Origin: Plumapathes pennacea | Taxonomy: Eukaryota > Cnidaria > Anthozoa > Antipatharia > Myriopathidae | Length of the DNA: 64,000 nucleotides | Assembly: GCA_964036295.1 (NCBI GenBank) | Contig: OZ038470.1 | Span: 16,436,436-16,500,435, forward strand | Reading direction: 5' to 3' | In this document: piece after piece, positions 20,269 through 63,993 of the stretch | Layout: the number at the start of each line of letters is the position of its first letter | Numbering within the stretch: the first letter of the stretch is position 1 | Notes under the pieces: model-generated | Told to the model about the DNA's origin: nothing | What the model saw: the letters and a program-made list of their open reading frames with translations, nothing else | The model's database searches: none | Position numbers and translations under genes: made by a program

Positions 20269-23200
20269 TCACAACTCGGGAGTAAAAGTAAATGTTGGAC
20301 CGGCATTGGGTCCAGCTTCCGGGTTTCCCTCGTCATCAACAGGTGTGCTCACTAGGTTCTTCACGTGAAGCTCCACCGAGTGCATCAGTCCAAGCGCGTT
20401 GCGCATGTCTTCTCGCTTGCCGTTAAGCGCTCCCTCCAGAGCTTTCAGCAGCCTGGTGTAAGCTTGGTTGAAGGTAAACGCCTTGTAGTCCGCATGAGTG
20501 CCTGGTTTATACATTGACATCTTTGGGTTCTTTATCATGGACCAAACACCATCTTCATCAAAAGGGATTTCCTGGCTTTTGAAGTCGAGAATGAATTGGC
20601 AAAGCTGCGGCGGTAATAAGTTGCAAAAGTCAGCGTTACGTTAAGTTACGTTACGTTACTCAAACGTATTGTTTAATAGTTCTCTCATATGACTATCTGG
20701 TGAACGTATAGGGAAGATGTCAGAGTTTCTTCAAAGATGGACACTATTTTGTAATAAGAGGAATCCTTCTGATGAGGTTCGAACCAAAACTAAAACTAAA
20801 CTTCGAATTAGTGTCCTTTAAGCAAAGGGATTTATTGCTTCTTACCTTTTCAATCCTCGCGCCGCTCTTGCCATTTTTGTTTGGGTTTTCGTCACTCCCG
20901 ACTCGTACTTTCTGCTTCTCAACAATACTCTTAAATAGATAATAGTTTGTCAGGTTACAGGGATATGCCCCTTCTCCTTCCTTTATCTCGTCTATTGCAG
21001 CCAAGGCTGTTTCCAAGTCAGTAACCTTGAATAGATTCCCAAATTCGTACTTGCCACCGAGGTGTTGCCATTCAACTTGTTTCTCAGCATCACCTGAAAT
21101 AGTATGCACTCTGTATTACTCAGAAATGTAGACTCTTTCACTACATGCATTGTTTCTCGATCTTTTCCAAACATTTGAGATTTAAGAGATTTATTTGCGT
21201 GGTCACATCATCGGGTTTCCGTCAAAGTTCAGAAGCTGGAAGCAGTACATTTAGTACAGTACATACAGTACATTGAGAGCTTTCATTAAAGTTGTTCACA
21301 CCTTTAGGTTCATAACAGTTCATGGTTTGGTTGTTATATAAGATGACTTCAATTTCTGTACTTTTTCTTTTTATTCCGGCATCACTAGATATCATGATGA
21401 ATACAGAAAACAAATAAACAAAGGGAAACGTATGTTAACGTATGTCGTACCTGTAAACAAGTCGTCATATTGTGCACTCAATGCTTTTAACTGCTCCTTG
21501 ATATTCTCGTAAAACTCTCCGATACTGCTACTTGGATACGTGAAGGAGGACAGACTTTCTTGGCTTTGAGAGTAATACCGTCTTCTCTTAGGAGCTTTGA
21601 TTCCACGTGTATTCATATACCTAAAGCATGAATATTGACCACTTTGGCAAGGAACAGATCCAAGTAGCATTTGTCCAAATTTTTGGACATTTTCTGTGCC
21701 ATAATCTTCTAGTGTATCAGTTTCCTTGTTGAAGTCAAACGGCTCTTCAATCTTCATAAAAACGTTCTTGATAAGTGAAACGGAGCATTTTTCGACGGGG
21801 ATGGTTAGCCGAGGATGAACCCCACCAGGGAGGTGTGAGGGGTAGTGTGGCACAAAGCCATCATAATACAACTTAGGCGCGATTCCCAGTGCATTCAGGA
21901 TGTTCGCCACGAGACTCATATGTAGCATCTTCTGAACAAGGACAGTTCTGAGAATTGCTTGCACCTCCATGTTACAGCCATTTTTGATTGTCGCCAGGGC
22001 GGTCAGATACGATGGAATAGAAGCGTGTTCAATTTGTAGCGCGATTTGCAAGTCCCTTCTCAAATTTTTTACTAAGTATTGGTCATTCCATTCCCCAATT
22101 GGAAGTTTTGGATCGTCCAACCATCGCAAAATAACCTTACGCTTTGCCTCTGAAAGATCGCGAGTAACGGGCATGTAGTTAGGATGAGAGATATCTAGCT
22201 GCATACTGTTTTTTATCGCTATCCGATACTCTGTAACCTCGTAATAGTTTCCAAGGTCCACAAAATTCTCGGTCATGACAGGATAAAGATGTGCGTACTG
22301 CTTGAATATGGGGAAAATGTGATCCAGCCATGTTGGGGACTGCACATCCGGGTAAGCATCGTAAACTTTGACCACTATGACGTCATCTGGGCTCATTTCG
22401 TTAGCAGGAGGCCCGTCCGTCAGACTGTAGCAAAAACTGTACAACTGACCATCGATGTAACTTCGATTATTACTCGGATTCCCCGTCTTGATTTTCACAG
22501 TGACAATTCCGTTTTTGTCGGTCTTGACTTGTTTTGGTACTGGTACAGGCAAGGGAGGGAGACCCACAGCCGGCGTTCCCTCCTCTACGAAGAGAGGCCC
22601 TAAACACTCCCGGAAGTCTATCTGTTTGTCACGGGTTTCCTGTCCAAAACGCGTCACCACAAATTGAAATTCAGCAGTGTCGCCTGCTTCGTATCGATTG
22701 GTCCATCTGTTGAACGGGTGCACGTGCAGTCCGCTCTGGTGTTCCGCCAGTACGACCCTGGAGCATGCTGGATCTGACCAGCTGCCTTCAACCTGTTGTA
22801 AGAACCTTCATTCAATTTACAAGTATCGGTACTCGATAAGAAGCACACAGGTGAAAGTGAAGACTGAGTTACTCATAACTAAAAGTAGTCATCTAACAAG
22901 TGTACAAGAAGAAAAAGAAAATTATCAGATTATTATAAATACGAACACGATAAAGGGAAGAAGAAGAAAAGGAACTTGGAGAAGTCAGACGACTGCAGAT
23001 TGAAGGAGTAATAAGGGATGTTGATATCTTCAGTTTTATGATGAAATTTAATTAACATACCTCTACAACCACCAGTGGGCGATCTCTAATAAGCTTCTGT
23101 TGTTCCTCTGTTAAAGATCCAAAGGGTGGGAAAGCCTGAATGCCGGCTGAAGTTTCGTACCAATCAGGAACAAATTTGTTGTTGACCACACCAATCCACA

Positions 23201-24780
23201 ACAGCTCGTCCGAACAGTCAAAGTTTGGTTTGTCCGACTTGTCAATTGCAACCGCGAGGGTTTTCAGTAGTGTTGTGTTCATACTTCCACTGAGTGTGAT
23301 AGGAAGACTATTTCCGAAGTCAACGATGACCCTGCAAGGTATAATATATGTTTTAAAATCCATCTTAATGATAGGCTTTTCAAACGTTTGTCATGTCGCT
23401 ACTTTAGGCCTGCAGCCTCTCTGCCATCTCCGCGTGTCCATTTTCCTCTGTTTCAAGCTGAAGAGGCTTGGCCTTTCTTTGTTAAATTGAGAGTTGATTT
23501 TTGTGGCAATGAACCCCGGTAAGTAACACTTTTTTTTTTAAGAATTCAAAGCTCTGCATTTGGCCTCGTGAAACAGAGACAACTTGATCGCGACACAACT
23601 TCACTCCTGAGTTTACAATGCAAATTCTCCCAATAATTTGAAAAGAAATTTTGTGAGAGATGTAGTAGGACCGGCCATAGTTTAATCAACTTTCATCCAA
23701 GCAAGTATTAAATTCCAAATTATTCAACTGCATAGTCACCCGCTGTCGAGAAGAGAAGAGAAAGGATGAACGAAACTAAACATACAGCAAACTCATTATG
23801 TATATTTTTCTTACATTTTGTTGAAGGTGTCCACCACGAAAGGCGCATTCTGCACCCTCCCCTCCCTGGGTCTGAGCATACGGCCATGACCAACAAAGAA
23901 CGGAGGAGCAAACTGACCAGCCACACCTATAACTCCCGTCACGTGACCCCAAGTGAAATTGGGTGACGCGGAGTCCTTCATGTAACGATCCATATTAAAG
24001 TGGATGGAGAGCTTCTTAGGTTTGTACTTGAGAATTTCTTTGACAAATTCGTTGTCCTTGTTAATCCAAGTAATGTTTGTTAAGACGGACGTGTATGCCG
24101 CTCCATACCCGTCGTCCTTGTTGTAGTCAGGGCCCATTTTCCACCAAGGGTATTGAAATGAGGTCGGTGTAAAGGCACCTTCGAACCAGTCTCCCACGCG
24201 GACTTTCCAGCCCCAGATCTCGGCAAAGGATTGGGCTTCAACGTCCAAGTCTACCATCTTTGCGAAAGATTTCGCTCCACCGTCTGCAAAGCAACAAGGG
24301 ATAGTCTTGTTGTATAGTGCCGCACAGGGGAAACCTTGGTCGGTTTCTCACGGCGAAGCAATGGCTAAATCTTTCGCGTTTGAATGAACGTCCAACTCCT
24401 GAACTGTCAAATGAAATGTGTTCTGGTTTTGCTTTGCGTTGTACTTAATTGACTGGATTGAGGCATAGATAAGGCCTCCTCAGTATAGGGGCCAGTTTGT
24501 AATTTTTAGAGGCGGTGAGGGAAGGGATAATTCACCACAGAAGTGACTTGGACAAACCTACGACAGGCACGTCTCTGACGCTCCTGCAATTTTGGTTGGC
24601 GTAGCACACTTTAGTGACTGAAGCGTTAATACTCCATTCTCCGCTTCCCATAGGGTTCCATGATGGCGGCGGTTTCCCAAAGTTCCCAGCATCGAAGTTT
24701 AACGGGTCGTTGTTGACGGACGCCGAGTCCGCACGATGTACTCCGCTAAAGTGAAGCCGAGGCCAGTTAAGGTAAGACAT
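20269..24780 (-). CDS. VioB-like protein (iminophenyl-pyruvate dimer synthase-like) with C-terminal ferritin-like domain
   Basis: Six minus-strand exons, 24780-24558, 24283-23815, 23331-23061, 22792-21451, 21093-20846 and 20604-20269, join in phase to 962 residues. Bacterial VioB has about 1000. The match runs the whole length. The N-terminus reads MSYLNWPRLHFSG, the position and pattern of the VioB start. DGGAKSF and ALWG-like IWGWKVRVGDW follow, then HVTGVIGVAGQF with GRMLRPREG. Mid-protein are FPIFKQYAHLYPVM and YMPVTRDLSEAKRKVILRWL. A ferritin-like segment (~570-720) has IEHASIPSYLTAL and VQKMLHMSLVANILNALG. In violacein synthesis VioB couples two indole-3-pyruvate imines, while RebD/StaD do the same for rebeccamycin and staurosporine. 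Here the ExxH glutamate is Lys (codon 21929-21931), so activity may differ. The product in this animal is unknown. An exon upstream of 24780 cannot be excluded. Confidence 0.83.
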
Positions 24781-25921
24781 GTAGTTCACATCTGTAACGC
24801 AATTCAGCACTTTTAGTTTGACAATAACATTCACTGGCGCCAAAGGAGTATTTGACTTCACTATTGAAAAACCCTCCAACTGATTTCTTAAAAATCACAA
24901 TATACTAGGGGTCTAGTATCAGCCATTTTACGCGTATTGTATACTATGCTTATGAGCCCCGGGTCAGTGGCGTGAATGATCAGGCGATTGATCAGGCGAA
25001 ACGCATGTATACACGGTGAGTTAAAATATGGTAGCGTCTCGAATCAGCCAAGTGCAAAAGAAAGTGCAGATAGTACTACAGTAGTGCGCGGACTAAACTT
25101 AAAATGGTGTCATGGTTTCATGGTTACCTTGTTCTGCGGCTTCGTGCTGAACTCTACTCTCTTCACCAAAAGAATACTTTACCTCTCCAAGTAAATCTAC
25201 CGCAGCTATCATGAGACAGACGATGATGCAGCAAGAACTCGAAAAAGGCAGTAAATAAACCATCATAGTTGGTTCAGTTCGTGCAAACTAAGTATCCCGC
25301 TTGCATTGTTTCCGAATAATTTATGTTTTTGTGGTATTAGTATTGCAAATGGATACGAATGACCTATGACCCGGTGTTCTGCTCGGATGGGTAGGAGCTT
25401 TATGTTATGTTTCATAGGTTGTCCCAGGGGATGACTTCCCTATGCTTTCCTTTACTTCCATATCCTTGCCTTGTGTCAAAGTCTTCGGCAGTGCAGCTGC
25501 GTCGTAAAACATCCCAATCTCGTTCCCAGGCTCTCTTATTGGGGGCGGGGGCCGGGAGATGAACCTGGGAACAAGGTTGAAATTAAATCCCAAGTTAAAA
25601 TAAGATAAAATAAATTGACTCTGTCGAGATCAGTAGTGCCATGGGATGTACTGGAGAAAGCATTTTATCCAGCTCAAGGAAAGGCCTTCCAATTACTGCA
25701 CAGTGCTCCCGCGCCGCTAAACACGCGGACCACCCCACCCCCTCCCCTCTCCTTCAACTCCTGCCCCTCGAGGAGGAGTCCTGGGCCCAAGAGCAACCGC
25801 GATCACTGCAGTCCAGCGCTCTTCACTTATTTCACATTTTGTCTGAAGTCTGGTGTTTTGCCATTTTGTATCGTCTTTCCTTCATCAACAGCTCATCAGA
25901 TACGCAATCAGAGATCCTAGG
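24781..25921. other. Divergent intergenic region between the VioB-like gene and SLC25A11
   Basis: Both genes point away from this 1.1 kb, so it should hold both promoters. A GC-rich stem-loop at about 25520-25577 pairs GTTCCCAGG with CCTGGGAAC around GGGGGCGGGGGCCGGG. CTCGTTCCCAGGCTCT recurs at about 36598. No gene is supported here. Confidence 0.5.
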
Positions 25922-34154: not shown

Positions 34155-36373
34155 TTAAAATGCTAAACAGAAACTTACAACGTAAAGAGCTCCAAACAGT
34201 AAGCTGAAGCCGGCCGTCTTCTGTGGAAGATCGACATGTTGGTCGACTTCAGAGCACACTATTTGTAGTGTGAATACAACTGGAAGGGTTAAGACCGGTA
34301 TCAGCAAATAAAACGACTTAAGCGTCACTGCCATTGTTACTATAACAACCTGGGGGACCAGCAAGAAATAGCAGTAGAATGCGCATGCGTAATTGGGTCC
34401 CAGGATGACAGCCAATGTCGTCGCTCCGCTCTGTTTGTCTCTCTTCAGGTCACGTGTATTTTGGCTGCGTAATAACAAAGACAGTATATGTGCTTTATAT
34501 TAAGTATGTTTGGGGCTATTCGTAAGGTTGCAATCAATCCTCAAATGTCACACGACGCAGTTTTTCTCACAGTTTGCAGCGCAAAGAAAATTGACAGACA
34601 AGTTGCAGGAAACGTTCAACAGTCTTACTACTTTTTGGCAGTGCTGCGTGGTCTTATGGCAACGTTTGACATCACTTAGCAACTTGTCTCGCAATACTGT
34701 CAACGTTGCGGGGCAAATTGTACGGAAAATTGCCTCGTGGCATGGCTCACACTGGCGATCACAACATACAGAGAACATAAGAATAAGGACCGAAATGTCG
34801 TTATGTGAACCACGAAAACATAAGGACATAAACATATATCGTACGTTATAGTTGGACAAAAAAAGTCGAATATTTGAAGTCAGAAGAAGCATGTATTAAC
34901 GTCAATATTTGTTGATGTAAATAATTATGCTGAACACCGTAAAGAATGGAGTTTCGTGATTGGTCGCGGCTGAAATTTCAAGCGTAAAGACGCATTCTAC
35001 AGTTTCCCGCTGCGCCGTCGATCTCATATGTACTCACGCGTATTAGTTCGCTTTTCACAGAGACTGGCATTTTGTGGTGCTACACCGGTTTACGAAGTTT
35101 ACTAAAAGAAACGTGACTTTTATGCGTTCTAGAAAGCCGACCGGAAACACGTCACAGCGTTCCCGTTTTCTTTTCTTTCTTTCTTTTTTTTTTTTTTTTT
35201 TTTTTTTTGTAACAAAACCATCTTTGTGTGTGTGTGTATGTGTCCAAAATGAACAGAACACAATTTTTACTCGGCGCTGTCGAAAATGGACACGGACAAT
35301 TTTGTTATTACTGGTGTGTTTGTTTTCGCGTTGCGTGACCGGTATTAATATAAACCCTCGGCCATTCTGGCACCTGTTGTGTGTTCTTCCTCGTGTTCGT
35401 ACTTTTACAACATCGTTTAAATATCATTCTAGACTCCTGTGTCCGTCTTAAGTCACGAATAAAAGCCATGGCGTATTAATAGCTTTTAAAAAGCAAAGCG
35501 CTTGGGAAGGTGAACTAAAATATCAGTTTCATAAACGCAATATTCAACTCTGAAAATTGAATATTAAACACCTCGTACAAAGCGCCGTAGTGTTTAGCTC
35601 TAAAGTTTTCGGGTCTATGAGAACATAACGAGGAGAAAGAAACCAAATAAAGAACATTCGTGACACGATTCATTGAAAGGATTTACCTTTAAAGAGCTTG
35701 GTCGGCGAAGTGTTTAAATACGAATTAATTATTTCTAGATAATTAAGGTAGAAAAGGCAAAACAAAATGGGCTTAGTTACCTATGGAGCATCGCTTCAGT
35801 GTTGAAGACCAGAGGAAGGGAATAGACTACCAAGCGGAGCATGGGAATGCTGTGGTACCCAGCTGTGGCTTGTACGTGATATGTGTACATCACCGTGAGC
35901 GGGCCAAAGATCCCACCGGCAACAATTTCGCCTGCTACGCTGTTTTTCAGTCCAGTTCCGTAGAGTAAAGATCCCAGAAACCCAGCGATAAAGAACAACA
36001 CTTGCTGCTGCCAATATGCCTCGGAGACCAGCAGCAAAGCAAGAAACGAAGCTATAGCGAAGAAACACGACCACACCGCGAATCGAGCTGTTTCGAGCAA
36101 GCGTGGTCGCCTAGTCGAAGGTCGTGGAAAGAAAGCACGTTCCTTGAGCTCGTAATACGAATTCACGAAGTTCCCAGCAGCGTGCGTGAGAAGGATTGTC
36201 GCCGCTGTCAAAATAAAAATCGTCAGTTGAAAGTGTTGGTCGAACTTCCACGACAGAACCGTGCCCAAGATAAACGGCGCCAACGACGCGGGAAATGTCC
36301 AAGGTTGCAAAGCTCTCGCGAAGCTTGCTTCGGTGGTTTGGATTTCGTGATATCTGTTTCTTCTAACTGCCAT
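34155..36373 (-). CDS. UBIAD1: UbiA-family prenyltransferase, UBIAD1-like
   Basis: Two minus-strand exons, 36373-35781 and 34464-34155, join at phase 2 to 300 residues (human UBIAD1 is 338). Several hydrophobic helices are visible. The join recreates NTEAMLHSQNTRDLKRDKQS, matching the second aspartate-rich motif (NTRDxxxD) of UBIAD1, which binds the prenyl-diphosphate magnesium. FGPLTVMYTYHVQ and PLVFNTEAMLH also fit. UBIAD1 makes menaquinone-4 and takes part in CoQ10 synthesis on ER/Golgi membranes. Odd: after HAAGNFVNSYYE, where the first Asp-rich motif and a DDRTLVD-like block should be, the protein reads LKERAFFPRPSTRRP with no aspartates. The other two frames there do not restore the motif cleanly. 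It is a diverged paralogue or an altered enzyme. Confidence 0.78.
34465..35780 (-). other. UBIAD1: UBIAD1 intron
   Basis: A single GT-AG intron on the minus strand. It contains a polypyrimidine tract (about 35166-35208) and a short GT run (35225-35241). I see no other gene. Confidence 0.6.
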
Positions 36374-54320: not shown

Positions 54321-54417
54321 AAGAATCATTGGTGGTAAGTAAAGCTGTACACTTACATAGAGGTGTTTTTCTTATGTTGTTCTACGTTTTTTTTTTTTTG
54401 TTTTTTGTTTGTTTCTG

Positions 54418-55770
<1,353 letters not shown>

Positions 55771-56280
55771 TCAAGGGTCGCTAGTCTCTTCGCTCGGAAC
55801 TGTTAGTTGAGGAGCATTCCAGAATGCTTCCCACGTTTTCTTAATCCCTCCAGCTAAAGTGGGAACAGCCGCGCTCATCAATGCACCACCAATTACCTGA
55901 AGAATGCGAAGAACCCACATCGCCAGAGCACTCTCCGCTACAAAAGGCAAAGACCCGACCAGTGCAGTAAGCGCTCCAATGCCTAGCAGGAAAAGGCCAA
56001 ACTTCACCATCGGTGATTTTCCCATTTGCTGGACGACGTGGTAGATGATTTTTACTGCGTCGCTAAACGACTTCTCGTCGATCACCTTCTGCCCAAGCCT
56101 CTCCACACTATCCACAAGGTTTTTCCCAGCTTCCGATTGTAGAACAGCTTCAAAATCAACCTTGATTTGAGCGATGAGGGCTTTCGATTCTGGGTCTTCT
56201 TCAAAACGCGTGCCTTTCAAGACATTGTCGGTAATTTTGATTGAGCTTTCCAGCATTTTCTTGTGTTTCTCCTCTGCCAT
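55771..56280 (-). CDS. Small membrane protein of unknown family, paralogue 1
   Basis: 169 residues, single exon, ATG at 56280. I do not recognise the family. Residues 1-90 are a charged, probably helical region with FEEDPESKALIAQIKVDFEA. Residues ~91-148 contain a hydrophobic hairpin: MVKFGLFLLGIGALTALVG, PFVAESALAMWVLRILQVIG and GALMSAAVPTLAGG. The C-terminus is short and polar. About half the residues are identical to the gene at 57105-57608, including a 13-residue block VKFGLFLLGIGAL. The two start codons face each other 824 bp apart. No signal peptide is present. A tail- or hairpin-anchored protein of an internal membrane is plausible, but function is unknown. Confidence 0.8.
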   Translation of the reverse strand: MAEEKHKKMLESSIKITDNVLKGTRFEEDPESKALIAQIKVDFEAVLQSEAGKNLVDSVERLGQKVIDEKSFSDAVKIIYHVVQQMGKSPMVKFGLFLLGIGALTALVGSLPFVAESALAMWVLRILQVIGGALMSAAVPTLAGGIKKTWEAFWNAPQLTVPSEETSDP

Positions 56281-57020
56281 TTCGAAATTCGCACCAAATG
56301 TTACTTTGTCTCAAGCGAAAGCAAGAAGTACTTATCTTCACGAGTGACTGAATAGCAGGCACTTTGTTAATTATTATCCACACGAAAGCCGGGAACCAAT
56401 TACATTTTGTCTTTGAACAAAACACCGCTCACGTGACCACAACAAAACAAAGAGTCAACTGTACTTTCCCTTTCCGAGAAATTGGAGCCGATGACGTCTT
56501 GTGATTAAAAACGTCGACTCTCAATTACTGAAAATCCGTCAGTTTAATTTGTGCTTGTTTTGCGTTTTTTTTATCCTGTGAGTAGCTTTATGAAAAAGTG
56601 AGGTTTGCCGACAACCAATATTACTTTCGTTACGGGAAATGCACAATTAGTGATCAAATACTACGGTAAACTTGATAATTTTCTGTTCCTACAGTCAAGA
56701 TATTTCAACCTGCTTCGTAAACAGCCTCCCACTGATATATGAGAGACTGATATGGTTTTCCAGTCAAACAAAAGTTTCTCGATTCAGTACAGTGCAATTT
56801 GTTTTGTCTTCTTTTTGTTATAAATGTTTTATTCAAGCCGAAAAGATCACGTTACAAGGCGTTGCAGCTGTGATGTAGCTTTGTCTCAAGACTGAAAACC
56901 AAAACATGTGTTAGAGTGGCCAATCACATTCGAGACAATATCAAAAAATTCCCTGACGACAATTTTAAAATTAGCAACTCGTGTAAGAGCTGTCAATGAC
57001 TGTCAAAAACAACAAATGAA

Positions 57021-57055
<35 letters not shown>

Positions 57056-57104
57056 ATGAGCAAGCACAATGCAGTTTCAGTCTTGAAGTCTGGTTGCAGT
57101 GAAC
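56281..57104. promoter_or_regulatory. Divergent promoter region of the paralogous membrane-protein pair
   Basis: 824 bp between two start codons pointing outwards. It holds an (AAAT)n tract at about 57017-57057 close to the plus-strand gene. No other coding region is supported. The bidirectional-promoter role is inferred from geometry only. Confidence 0.5.
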
Positions 57105-57608
57105 ATGGAGTTAGCCAAACGCGAAGATATCGTAGAGAAGTCGACTGAAATCGTCGACAAACTTCTAGAAGGCACTCAATTCGAAAACGACCCAGAGAGC
57201 ACAGAAATCCTGTCTGACGTCAAGAGAGACTTCGAAGCTATCCTGGCTACAGACATTGGTGAAAGCTTGATGAACAACGTCGAAAAACTCGGCAAAAAAG
57301 TGACCACCGAAGTAAAGTTTTTCGACACGGCTAGAGTTATATTTCGTCTGGTCAAGCAACTCAGCAGCTCACCGATCGTAAAGTTTGGGCTTTTCCTTCT
57401 TGGCATCGGAGCACTGATTGCTGTTGTTGGCTCGTTTACCTTTGTAGCGGAGGCTGCTTTGGCCGTGTGGATTCTCCGTCTGTTGATATGGATTGGTGGA
57501 GCTTTAATGGGTCTTTCTTTGTCTGCAATCGTTGGAGGAGCGGTGAAGAGTCTGAAAAAGTTCGAAGCATTCTGGGCCACTCCTGCTCCCCCAGAACCGC
57601 CGAAGTAG
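57105..57608 (+). CDS. Small membrane protein of unknown family, paralogue 2
   Basis: 167 residues from the ATG at 57105. An in-frame GTG two codons upstream is not a likely start. Organisation is the same as paralogue 1: charged helical N-terminal half with FENDPESTEIL and VKRDFEAILA, then the hydrophobic hairpin IVKFGLFLLGIGALIAVVG, FVAEAALAVWILRLLIWIG and GALMGLSLSAIVGG, and a Pro-rich end (APPEPPK). No intron. AATAAA lies at 57939-57944. The 3' UTR holds a 114-bp tandem duplication. Conservation of sequence and length between the two copies indicates that both are real genes. Confidence 0.8.
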   Translation: MELAKREDIVEKSTEIVDKLLEGTQFENDPESTEILSDVKRDFEAILATDIGESLMNNVEKLGKKVTTEVKFFDTARVIFRLVKQLSSSPIVKFGLFLLGIGALIAVVGSFTFVAEAALAVWILRLLIWIGGALMGLSLSAIVGGAVKSLKKFEAFWATPAPPEPPK

Positions 57609-61859: not shown

Positions 61860-63993
61860 TACATTAGGTTGGTTGTGATCGTCCGGGTTAGAGTAGTCTC
61901 CAGAAAGACTGTTGTTGGTGACTGACGTTTCGACTACCTGAGCGGAAGTCATCTTCAGAGTCAAGTGAAAAGTATTTGTCAGATGGCGGTATATATGTCT
62001 CTGGTTGTAGAAGTGATTGGTCCGTTATGTCGGTCTATGGTTGGTCGAGTCGGCTTGGTTGTGTTTCGTTATTGGTCAGTTGATGTTCTTTTGTCCTGTT
62101 GATTAGTCTATTGTTCGTTCGGTTGCGTTTGATGTCATCTATCAGTCGTTTGTAAGGTGCCGGTAGTTGTTGGCATCTGTTGAGTGGTTTCCGTTCTAAG
62201 TTTGTGTACCAGCTTTCCAGTGTAAGTCGTTGGTAGTAGTTGGTACTGTGGCTGATGCATTCAGCAGAGTCCCAGTTGATGTCGTGTTTAGTCTGTCGGT
62301 GGTGTTCAGAAATGTGATTTCTGATGTCGCCGTTTCTGGTAGCTCGTTTGTGTTCAGTAAGTCTCGTGTTCAGGTTTCTGCCAGTTTCACCGATGTAGGT
62401 GGCTTTGCAGTCAGTACAAGATATTCTGTATACTGTTCCCTGTCTGTTGATGGGTTCGTCTTTGTCCTTTACGTTGGTCAGTAAGTCGCGTAGAGTCGTG
62501 ATGGGTTTGTGGGCTACCCGGATGTTGTAGGGTCGTAGAATACGTGCTATCGTCTCAGAGGTGCCTCTGATATACGGTAGTGTGGCCAAGGTCAATGGAG
62601 TTGTGTCGTTAGCGGTTTCGTTGTCGGTAGTCTCGTTGGGTGCGGTGTTCTTGTGAGTGTTGCGTTTGACAAAGTTAGGGTCGTAGTCGTTCTTCTGGAA
62701 AACGCGTTCCAGGTGTCGGGTCTCGTTAAGTAAGTCGTCGGGAGAGTCACAAAGTAGTTGCGCTCGTTTCGTCAGCGTTCTGATCGTGGTAGCCTTGTGT
62801 GAAGTAGGGTTGTAAGAAGTCTGGTCAAGTAGTCTGTCAGTGTGCGTTGGTTTTCTGTAGACTGTAGTTCGTAGCCTGTCGTTGTCGTGGCTCACGAGGC
62901 AATCTAAGAACGGAAGTTTTCCGTTGTCTTCGATTTCCTTAGTGAACTGTATGTCAGGGTTTTGGTCGTTCAGGTGTTTGTGGAAGGAGTCAATGTCGTC
63001 TTTGTGTACAGCAGTAAACGTATCGTCAACGTATCGTAGCCAGAGAGGCAGCGTTTGTTCGTAGGTTGCAAGGGCGCGTTCTTCGATGTGTTGCATCACA
63101 ATTTCTGCTACAATAACAGAGACCGGTGAACCCATTGCTGTTCCGTGTAGTTGTCGGTAGTGTTTTCCGTTGTACTGGAAGTACGTGGAAGTCAAGCATA
63201 GAGTTAGTAACTCCATGACGTCTTTAGTCGGTAAGGGTAGTTTGGTAGTGTGGCGTTCGATAGCAGTTTCAGTACACTGTAGTGCCAACTGAAGTGGAAT
63301 ACTGGTGAACAGTGATTTCACATCAAAGGACACGAGTTTGTAGTCGTTAGGCATCTGTATAGTCTTGATCGCGTCGATGAAGTTCTCAGTAGACTGTAGT
63401 TTGTGTTTAGAATTGTTTGTCAGCGGTTTCAGTATGGTCGTTAAGTACTTCGAGAGTTCGTACGTCGGGGACCCACAGAACGAGACTATGGGTCGCATCG
63501 GTATGTTAGGTTTGTGCAGTTTGGGTAGTCCGTAGAGTTTCGGTGACTGTGGCACCGAAGATCTCAGTCGGTAGTAGCGTTGAATGTCAATAGCGTCAGT
63601 CTTTCTCAGTGAAAAGACTTTGGCGTTCAGTTTCCGTTGTAGAGCCGGTGAGGGGTCTCGAGTGAGTTCTTTGTACGTCTGCTTGTCGTTGACAAGTGCG
63701 TCCATTTTGTCGTGGTAGTCTGTTTTGTTCATGACAACAGTCACTCGTCCTTTGTCGGCTGGCAGTATGACAATGTCTTTGTCGTTTTGTAGTCGTTTCA
63801 GTGCTTGTTTTTCGTCTTTGGTCATGTTGTTGTCATGTATAGAGGCTGATTGTATCGTAGAAGCAATTCTGCTCCTGATGTTATCCTTGGCCGTGTCAGG
63901 TAAATCTCTATTACGAGACAAGGCGGCCTCAACGCTGGATACAATAGTCTCTGTCGGTATTCGTTTTGGCGTTATGGAGTGTTTCAGTCCGTT
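61860..63993 (-). mobile_element. Penelope-like retroelement (5' end outside window or lost)
   Basis: It comprises the reverse transcriptase/GIY-YIG frame at 62035-63993 and a ~175-bp 3' flank whose sequence recurs at 60735-60890. It is inserted upstream of INTS11 exon 61784-61701, in the same orientation, presumably within an intron. Confidence 0.85.
62035..63993 (-). CDS. Penelope-like reverse transcriptase with GIY-YIG endonuclease
   Basis: Open for 652 codons after an in-frame TAG at 63994-63996. No ATG precedes the conserved part, so the N-terminus is missing, mutated or outside the window. The first residues (GLKHSITPKRIPTETIVSSV) already belong to the conserved Penelope N-terminal region. 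RT motifs in order: LPADKGRVTVVMNK, MRPIVSFCGSPTYELSKYL, VSFDVKSLFTSIPL, GTAMGSPVSVIVAE, WLRYVDDTFTAV (catalytic YVDD) and KLPFLDCLV. The C-terminal endonuclease has GTVYRISCTDCKATYIGETG, an Arg and His that follow, and LESWY with the catalytic-type Glu. The frame downstream of the TAG has no further stops, so the copy is fairly young. Such elements retrotranspose through target-primed reverse transcription. Confidence 0.92.
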   Translation of the reverse strand, partial: NGLKHSITPKRIPTETIVSSVEAALSRNRDLPDTAKDNIRSRIASTIQSASIHDNNMTKDEKQALKRLQNDKDIVILPADKGRVTVVMNKTDYHDKMDALVNDKQTYKELTRDPSPALQRKLNAKVFSLRKTDAIDIQRYYRLRSSVPQSPKLYGLPKLHKPNIPMRPIVSFCGSPTYELSKYLTTILKPLTNNSKHKLQSTENFIDAIKTIQMPNDYKLVSFDVKSLFTSIPLQLALQCTETAIERHTTKLPLPTKDVMELLTLCLTSTYFQYNGKHYRQLHGTAMGSPVSVIVAEIVMQHIEERALATYEQTLPLWLRYVDDTFTAVHKDDIDSFHKHLNDQNPDIQFTKEIEDNGKLPFLDCLVSHDNDRLRTTVYRKPTHTDRLLDQTSYNPTSHKATTIRTLTKRAQLLCDSPDDLLNETRHLERVFQKNDYDPNFVKRNTHKNTAPNETTDNETANDTTPLTLATLPYIRGTSETIARILRPYNIRVAHKPITTLRDLLTNVKDKDEPINRQGTVYRISCTDCKATYIGETGRNLNTRLTEHKRATRNGDIRNHISEHHRQTKHDINWDSAECISHSTNYYQRLTLESWYTNLERKPLNRCQQLPAPYKRLIDDIKRNRTNNRLINRTKEHQLTNNETQPSRLDQP

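Follow-up and report, generated by a model that had tools for sequence, protein, structure and literature searches.

VioB, RebD and StaD dimerise indole-3-pyruvate imine in bisindole pathways (violacein, rebeccamycin and staurosporine). Here we examine a gene from the antipatharian Plumapathes pennacea, lying on the minus strand of a 64,000-nucleotide stretch of contig OZ038470.1 (positions 16,436,436 to 16,500,435; assembly GCA_964036295.1), hereafter the window, which an initial annotation had described as VioB-like. A beta-rich N-terminal half followed by a ferritin-like C-terminal half (PF12902) is the architecture of the animal family to which this gene belongs and of its fused bacterial relative, whereas the Caulobacter ferritin-like protein CC_0557 (PDB 3hl1) is without the N-terminal half. 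Sequence comparison leads us to favour, with moderate confidence, the reading that the gene belongs to a family of spliced animal genes whose relative is a fused bacterial VioB-like protein, and that the window copy is a non-catalytic member of this family. We recognised no description of the VioB-like/PF12902 family in an animal in the open-licence literature searched. A Schistosoma vesicle study applies the PF12902 label to ferritin-like domains (PMC7563238), and from its discussion we take these proteins to be ordinary ferritins. The present locus links three subjects that were not found joined in that literature, namely an expanded animal family related to bacterial proteins, the VioB-like/ferritin-like proteins, and the ebo gene cluster.

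Relation to VioB and gene structure

The window protein matched PF12902 over residues 619-876 with 150.9 bits (E = 6.2e-44; Pfam gathering score 22.3 bits). Profile alignment with hhalign against four true VioB sequences was nearly full-length (probability 99.8), with E-values of 2.8e-29 for a profile of 16 bacterial rows (A3) and 7.1e-29 for one of two animal and four bacterial rows (A1). The similarity along the whole length of VioB claimed by the initial annotation is thus borne out, as is the PF12902 match that it had proposed as a check. In contrast, the protein scored 20.7 bits with the VioB equivalog model TIGR04492 (iminophenyl-pyruvate dimer synthase), whose curated cut-off is 1250, which rules out true VioB identity. 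The term VioB-like therefore stands in the sense of distant homology, and by sequence the animal gene groups with a separate VioB-like/PF12902 family, not with VioB. When ten genomes were searched with TIGR04492, true VioB was found above the cut-off in four, each of which also carries a VioB-like locus (L091, L092, L105 and L116); in three of the four, additional matches sit far under the cut-off. Equivalents of E626, H662, E720 and E859 are common to VioB and the window protein, and E659 and H868 are replaced in the latter. True VioB-type chemistry, in which indole-3-pyruvate imine would be dimerised for a pigment, has the distant full-length homology in its favour but is very improbable in view of the model score, the co-occurrence of both gene types in four genomes, the position of VioB far off in the 67-row tree described below (branch 1.69 on either side of the root) and the active-site losses of the window copy.

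The six exons in phase reported by the initial annotation join at GT..AG introns into exactly 962 codons, with the ATG at 24780 and a stop codon whose last nucleotide is 20269. The gene is not complete at these six, since an upstream exon was overlooked; it joins in phase across a 336-nucleotide intron and adds 50 residues starting MMVYLLPFSSSCCIIVCLMIAAVDLLG, giving a full model of 1012 amino acids in seven exons (Table 1). The leader encoded by this exon 0 is hydrophobic (11-residue mean 3.29) and is a probable signal peptide; of 200 random acceptors, 3 had an in-phase candidate scoring 2.8 or more no further than 600 nucleotides away. The acceptor at 24833, which scored slightly above the one used at 24791 and would place 14 extra residues before MSYL, is a possible alternative, so that the position of the exon 0/exon 1 join is not fixed exactly. 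The window introns at residues 125, 281, 372, 819 and 902 are matched in position and phase in 7, 5, 8, 6 and 4, respectively, of eight paralogue models, the guide for these models being the window protein itself or a paralogue from C7 or C2. Because of this recurrence, these five intron sites are supported without RNA.

Animal paralogues and fused bacterial relatives

Scanning of the host genome (290,015,204 bases, 24 contigs) yielded 28 PF12902 places above the cut-off, including that of the window, on contigs C2, C5, C7, C9 and C10. These resolve to 11 genes with both halves (C2a, C2b, C2c, C5, C7b-g and the window gene), four places on C10 that have the C half, and the fragment C7a; the host has 15 or more loci, spread over five contigs. 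The models of C7c and C7f needed a frameshift, and the N-terminal exons of C2b, unjoined in its model, perhaps lie ~14 kb upstream. In C2a, C5 and C7b-f, the residue in place of the start methionine of the bacterial MSYL is another one and that exon has no in-frame upstream ATG; these seven paralogues therefore need an upstream start. The proportion of synonymous differences (pS) is 0.80 for two pairs, C2a with C5 and the window gene with C7d, and we therefore take the acquisition to be old.

The four C10 places, which have the ferritin-like half only, form a cluster at G000 C10:3382574-3400922 (L027-L030). C10c has no ExxH motif; an intron-blind listing of the matched stretches shows two stops in C10c and one in C10d. 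A separate origin of these genes was rejected, as C10a and C10d, the two that were placed, group within the animal clade with support of 98. N-half pieces alone occur at G000 C2:6872889-6873146, 6940129-6940396 and 6959679-6959963 and are perhaps broken copies.

A scan of bacterial genome contigs gave 268 pattern matches, 166 of them confirmed, and the best 80 of these 166 loci were kept. Both halves lie in one frame at 20 of the 80; the other 60 are not fused, mostly two adjoining genes, and only the N half was detected in four of them. Ferritin-like proteins standing alone next to GMC oxidoreductases (Rhizobium, Sinorhizobium, Agrobacterium and Pseudoalteromonas), matched in the same search, correspond to the C half, have no N half and form a separate branch, a placement that carries a long-branch warning. 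Among 164 plasmid records found by tblastn, eight had one place covering at least 80% of the query, annotated as a hypothetical protein beside a ferritin-like protein. Fused bacterial proteins, such as those of Undibacterium (L043) and a Chloroflexi metagenome-assembled genome (L037), have the same architecture as the animal proteins; with paralogue C2a as query, best-segment identity was 35% to L037 and 38% to the partial L068. They differ in being without introns and in keeping the equivalents of E659 and H868, whereas the animal copies have multiplied and are probably secreted.

Trees were built from 67 rows (LG+G4) and from 36 rows (mixture model, VioB left out) by quick searches, with support from the Shimodaira-Hasegawa approximate likelihood-ratio test (SH-aLRT) only. 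Apart from VioB in the larger tree, the animal rows were host-genome paralogues (C7a, C10b and C10c left out) and the bacterial rows came from 47 hand-chosen loci of the 80 and five plasmid pairs. The animal rows formed a single clade with support of 100 in both trees. Animals and fused bacterial rows, all with both halves in one chain, formed one group with SH-aLRT 99 (67 rows) and 99.3 (36 rows), and the fused rows alone were supported at 95 and 90, so that in these trees the animal clade is sister to the fused bacterial clade. A first fusion of the two halves in the animal is ruled out by this sister group and by the fused forms among the kept bacterial loci. The phylogeny that the initial annotation had called for thus returned one animal clade beside fused bacterial proteins and did not place the fungal relatives. 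Its proposal that an ancestral bacterial gene was acquired and gained introns agrees with the bacterial-type relatives and the introns; with the fungal relatives unplaced, the donor is, on sequence grounds, likely rather than certainly bacterial. We infer one ancient acquisition.

Contamination or misassembly has a negligible probability. The family is bacterial in type, and single-base errors at the two altered codons of the window copy (below) are possible, but contamination is ruled out by the introns, by animal-type genes on both flanks and by paralogues on five contigs that share introns; the gene is a spliced host gene, as had been claimed.

The altered site of the window copy

The window copy has Lys in place of Glu659 and Asn in place of His868, two presumed metal ligands, by analogy, that are invariant in all 66 other sequences compared. 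It keeps E626, H662, E720 and E859, so the five-residue site E626, E659, H662, E859 and H868, a definition of our own and not a curated one, is incomplete. The 12 other animal models covering these positions keep all five residues, C10c being without ExxH. We suggest that a metal is bound at these positions in the intact paralogues and that the animal proteins are routed into the secretory pathway; the paralogues would then probably be secreted metal-dependent oxidases that act, within that pathway or outside the cell, on a small molecule perhaps derived from an amino acid. The window copy could not hold a metal site like that of its relatives and may work without catalysis, for example by binding to its paralogues or partnering with them. 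The initial annotation had suggested that it could make or modify an aromatic metabolite or pigment; pigment or indole-dimer making is unlikely for this copy because the two invariant, presumed active-site residues are lost.

Comparison with C2c gave a nonsynonymous divergence (dN) of 0.306 and a synonymous divergence (dS) of 1.38, a dN/dS of 0.22 as a pair average. Where five other paralogues are invariant, changes found only in the window copy number 3 in the N half and 12 in the C half, and those found only in C2c number 10 and 6 (Fisher p = 0.029, one post hoc test, uncorrected). This pattern fits a relaxed catalytic half with the rest kept, the N half of the window copy being perhaps under stronger constraint.

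It is unlikely, in our judgement, that the window protein has kept enzymatic activity through a rebuilt metal site or a cofactor (for example haem) independent of E659 and H868. The intact frame, the low dN/dS and the four retained residues would suit an enzyme, and the relative StaD is called a hemoprotein in a title cited by PMC10784701, but both of the otherwise invariant residues have been exchanged, and the paralogues have a longer stretch ahead of residue 868. We consider it improbable that the copy is an incipient pseudogene. Its two replacements and surplus of C-half changes point that way, as does the apparent decay of other copies (the C7c and C7f frameshifts, and C10c), but its frame runs over 1012 codons with no stop or frameshift, every splice site is kept, dN/dS against C2c is low and its branch length (0.32) is akin to that of its sister (0.30 plus 0.04-0.09).

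Several points weigh against a secreted, metal-dependent family with a non-catalytic window member. The metal-binding role of the five positions is assigned by analogy only. The signal-peptide candidates of C7b, C7c and C2a carry little weight, as scores of at least 2.0 within 3000 nucleotides arose at 71 of 200 random sites, and no candidate was found for C2c, C5, C7d, C7e or C7f, the last four of which had less than 2 kb of upstream DNA available. Animal and bacterial ranges of cysteine content overlap (bacterial maximum 1.29%). The window copy also departs from the family at seven further columns with conservation of 95% or more, and the dS underlying its averaged dN/dS is high.

If the paralogues are active, the animal would produce a metabolite by means of a kind of enzyme familiar from the making of bacterial pigments and antibiotics. 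The presence of intact and altered copies in one genome would allow direct comparison within the family.

Table 1 Exons and altered codons of the window gene (window positions)
Feature	Positions	Strand	Support
Exon 0, probable signal peptide MMVYLLPFSSSCCIIVCLMIAAVDLLG	25128..25266	-	In-phase GT..AG junction to exon 1; hydrophobicity 3.29; random-acceptor control
Exon 1, contains MSYLNWPRLHFSG; alternative acceptor 24833	24558..24791	-	3' intron in 7/8 paralogue models
Exon 2	23815..24283	-	3' intron common to 5/8 paralogue models
Exon 3	23061..23331	-	3' intron common to 8/8 paralogue models
Exon 4, end of N-terminal half and start of ferritin-like half	21451..22792	-	3' intron in 6/8 paralogue models
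Exon 5, ferritin-like half	20846..21093	-	3' intron common to 4/8 paralogue models
Exon 6 with stop codon	20269..20604	-	In-phase joined model
Codon of Lys659 (ExxH motif; Glu in others)	21929..21931	-	62/62 other aligned members and 4/4 VioB
Codon of Asn868 (His in others)	20945..20947	-	62/62 other aligned members and 4/4 VioB

Gene neighbourhoods in bacteria and in the window

PMC6282210 describes the ebo cluster as taking part in scytonemin-precursor transport in a cyanobacterium, and reports that the Pseudomonas EDB cluster contains a full ebo cluster and that its loss makes the cells edible to nematodes. We searched up to 10 kb of flank around the 80 bacterial loci by blastp with EboA-F and LodA/B from two annotated plasmids. 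At least three ebo-type (metabolite export) genes were present in the fetched flank at 25 of the 80 loci (6 of 20 fused, 19 of 60 split) and LodA at 4, these being raw tallies. Among loci of 20 kb or more, 23 of 51 had at least three ebo-type genes; no ebo match was found at 55 of the 80, some of them on short contigs. A scan of the fused loci, covering 81 of 136 listed frames at 15 of the 20, recorded few ebo-type domains among the 81, with a phosphodiesterase in four, TatD in three, UbiA in two and DHQ synthase in one. Genes for LodA/GoxA-type quinoprotein oxidases lie near bacterial VioB-like genes at L004:3498-6559, L051, L062, L090 and L108, echoing the fungal LodA/PF12902 neighbourhoods reported in PMC4417212. 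Searches of the host genome did not find LodA_C, EboA or EboE, the last two run without a positive control. A bolder reading is that the animal acquired a bacterial enzyme of imine coupling or aromatic metabolism, secretes it, multiplied it to at least 15 loci and retains a catalytically inactive copy to partner the others as regulator or carrier, which would amount to an animal-run secondary metabolism of the VioB kind; we hold it to be improbable. A search of the host genome for the GFP family gave no match, which has little weight as none was obtained in 14 control genomes either.

The genes neighbouring the window copy, encoding a mitochondrial carrier, a rhodopsin-type receptor, a Core-2/I-branching enzyme, an F-box protein and a UbiA-type protein, fit an animal. 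The UbiA-family gene (35780-36373, minus strand), probably of the animal UBIAD1 type, was not counted as a member of an ebo-like cluster. Two similar short proteins with hydrophobic stretches and no Pfam match lie in opposite orientation at 55774-56310 (minus) and 57087-57605 (plus). A long TA-type repeat at 54339-54905 reads YIYIYI in several frames. An open frame of 652 amino acids at 62038-63993 (minus strand) contains reverse transcriptase and GIY-YIG domains, and we take it to resemble a Penelope-type retroelement.
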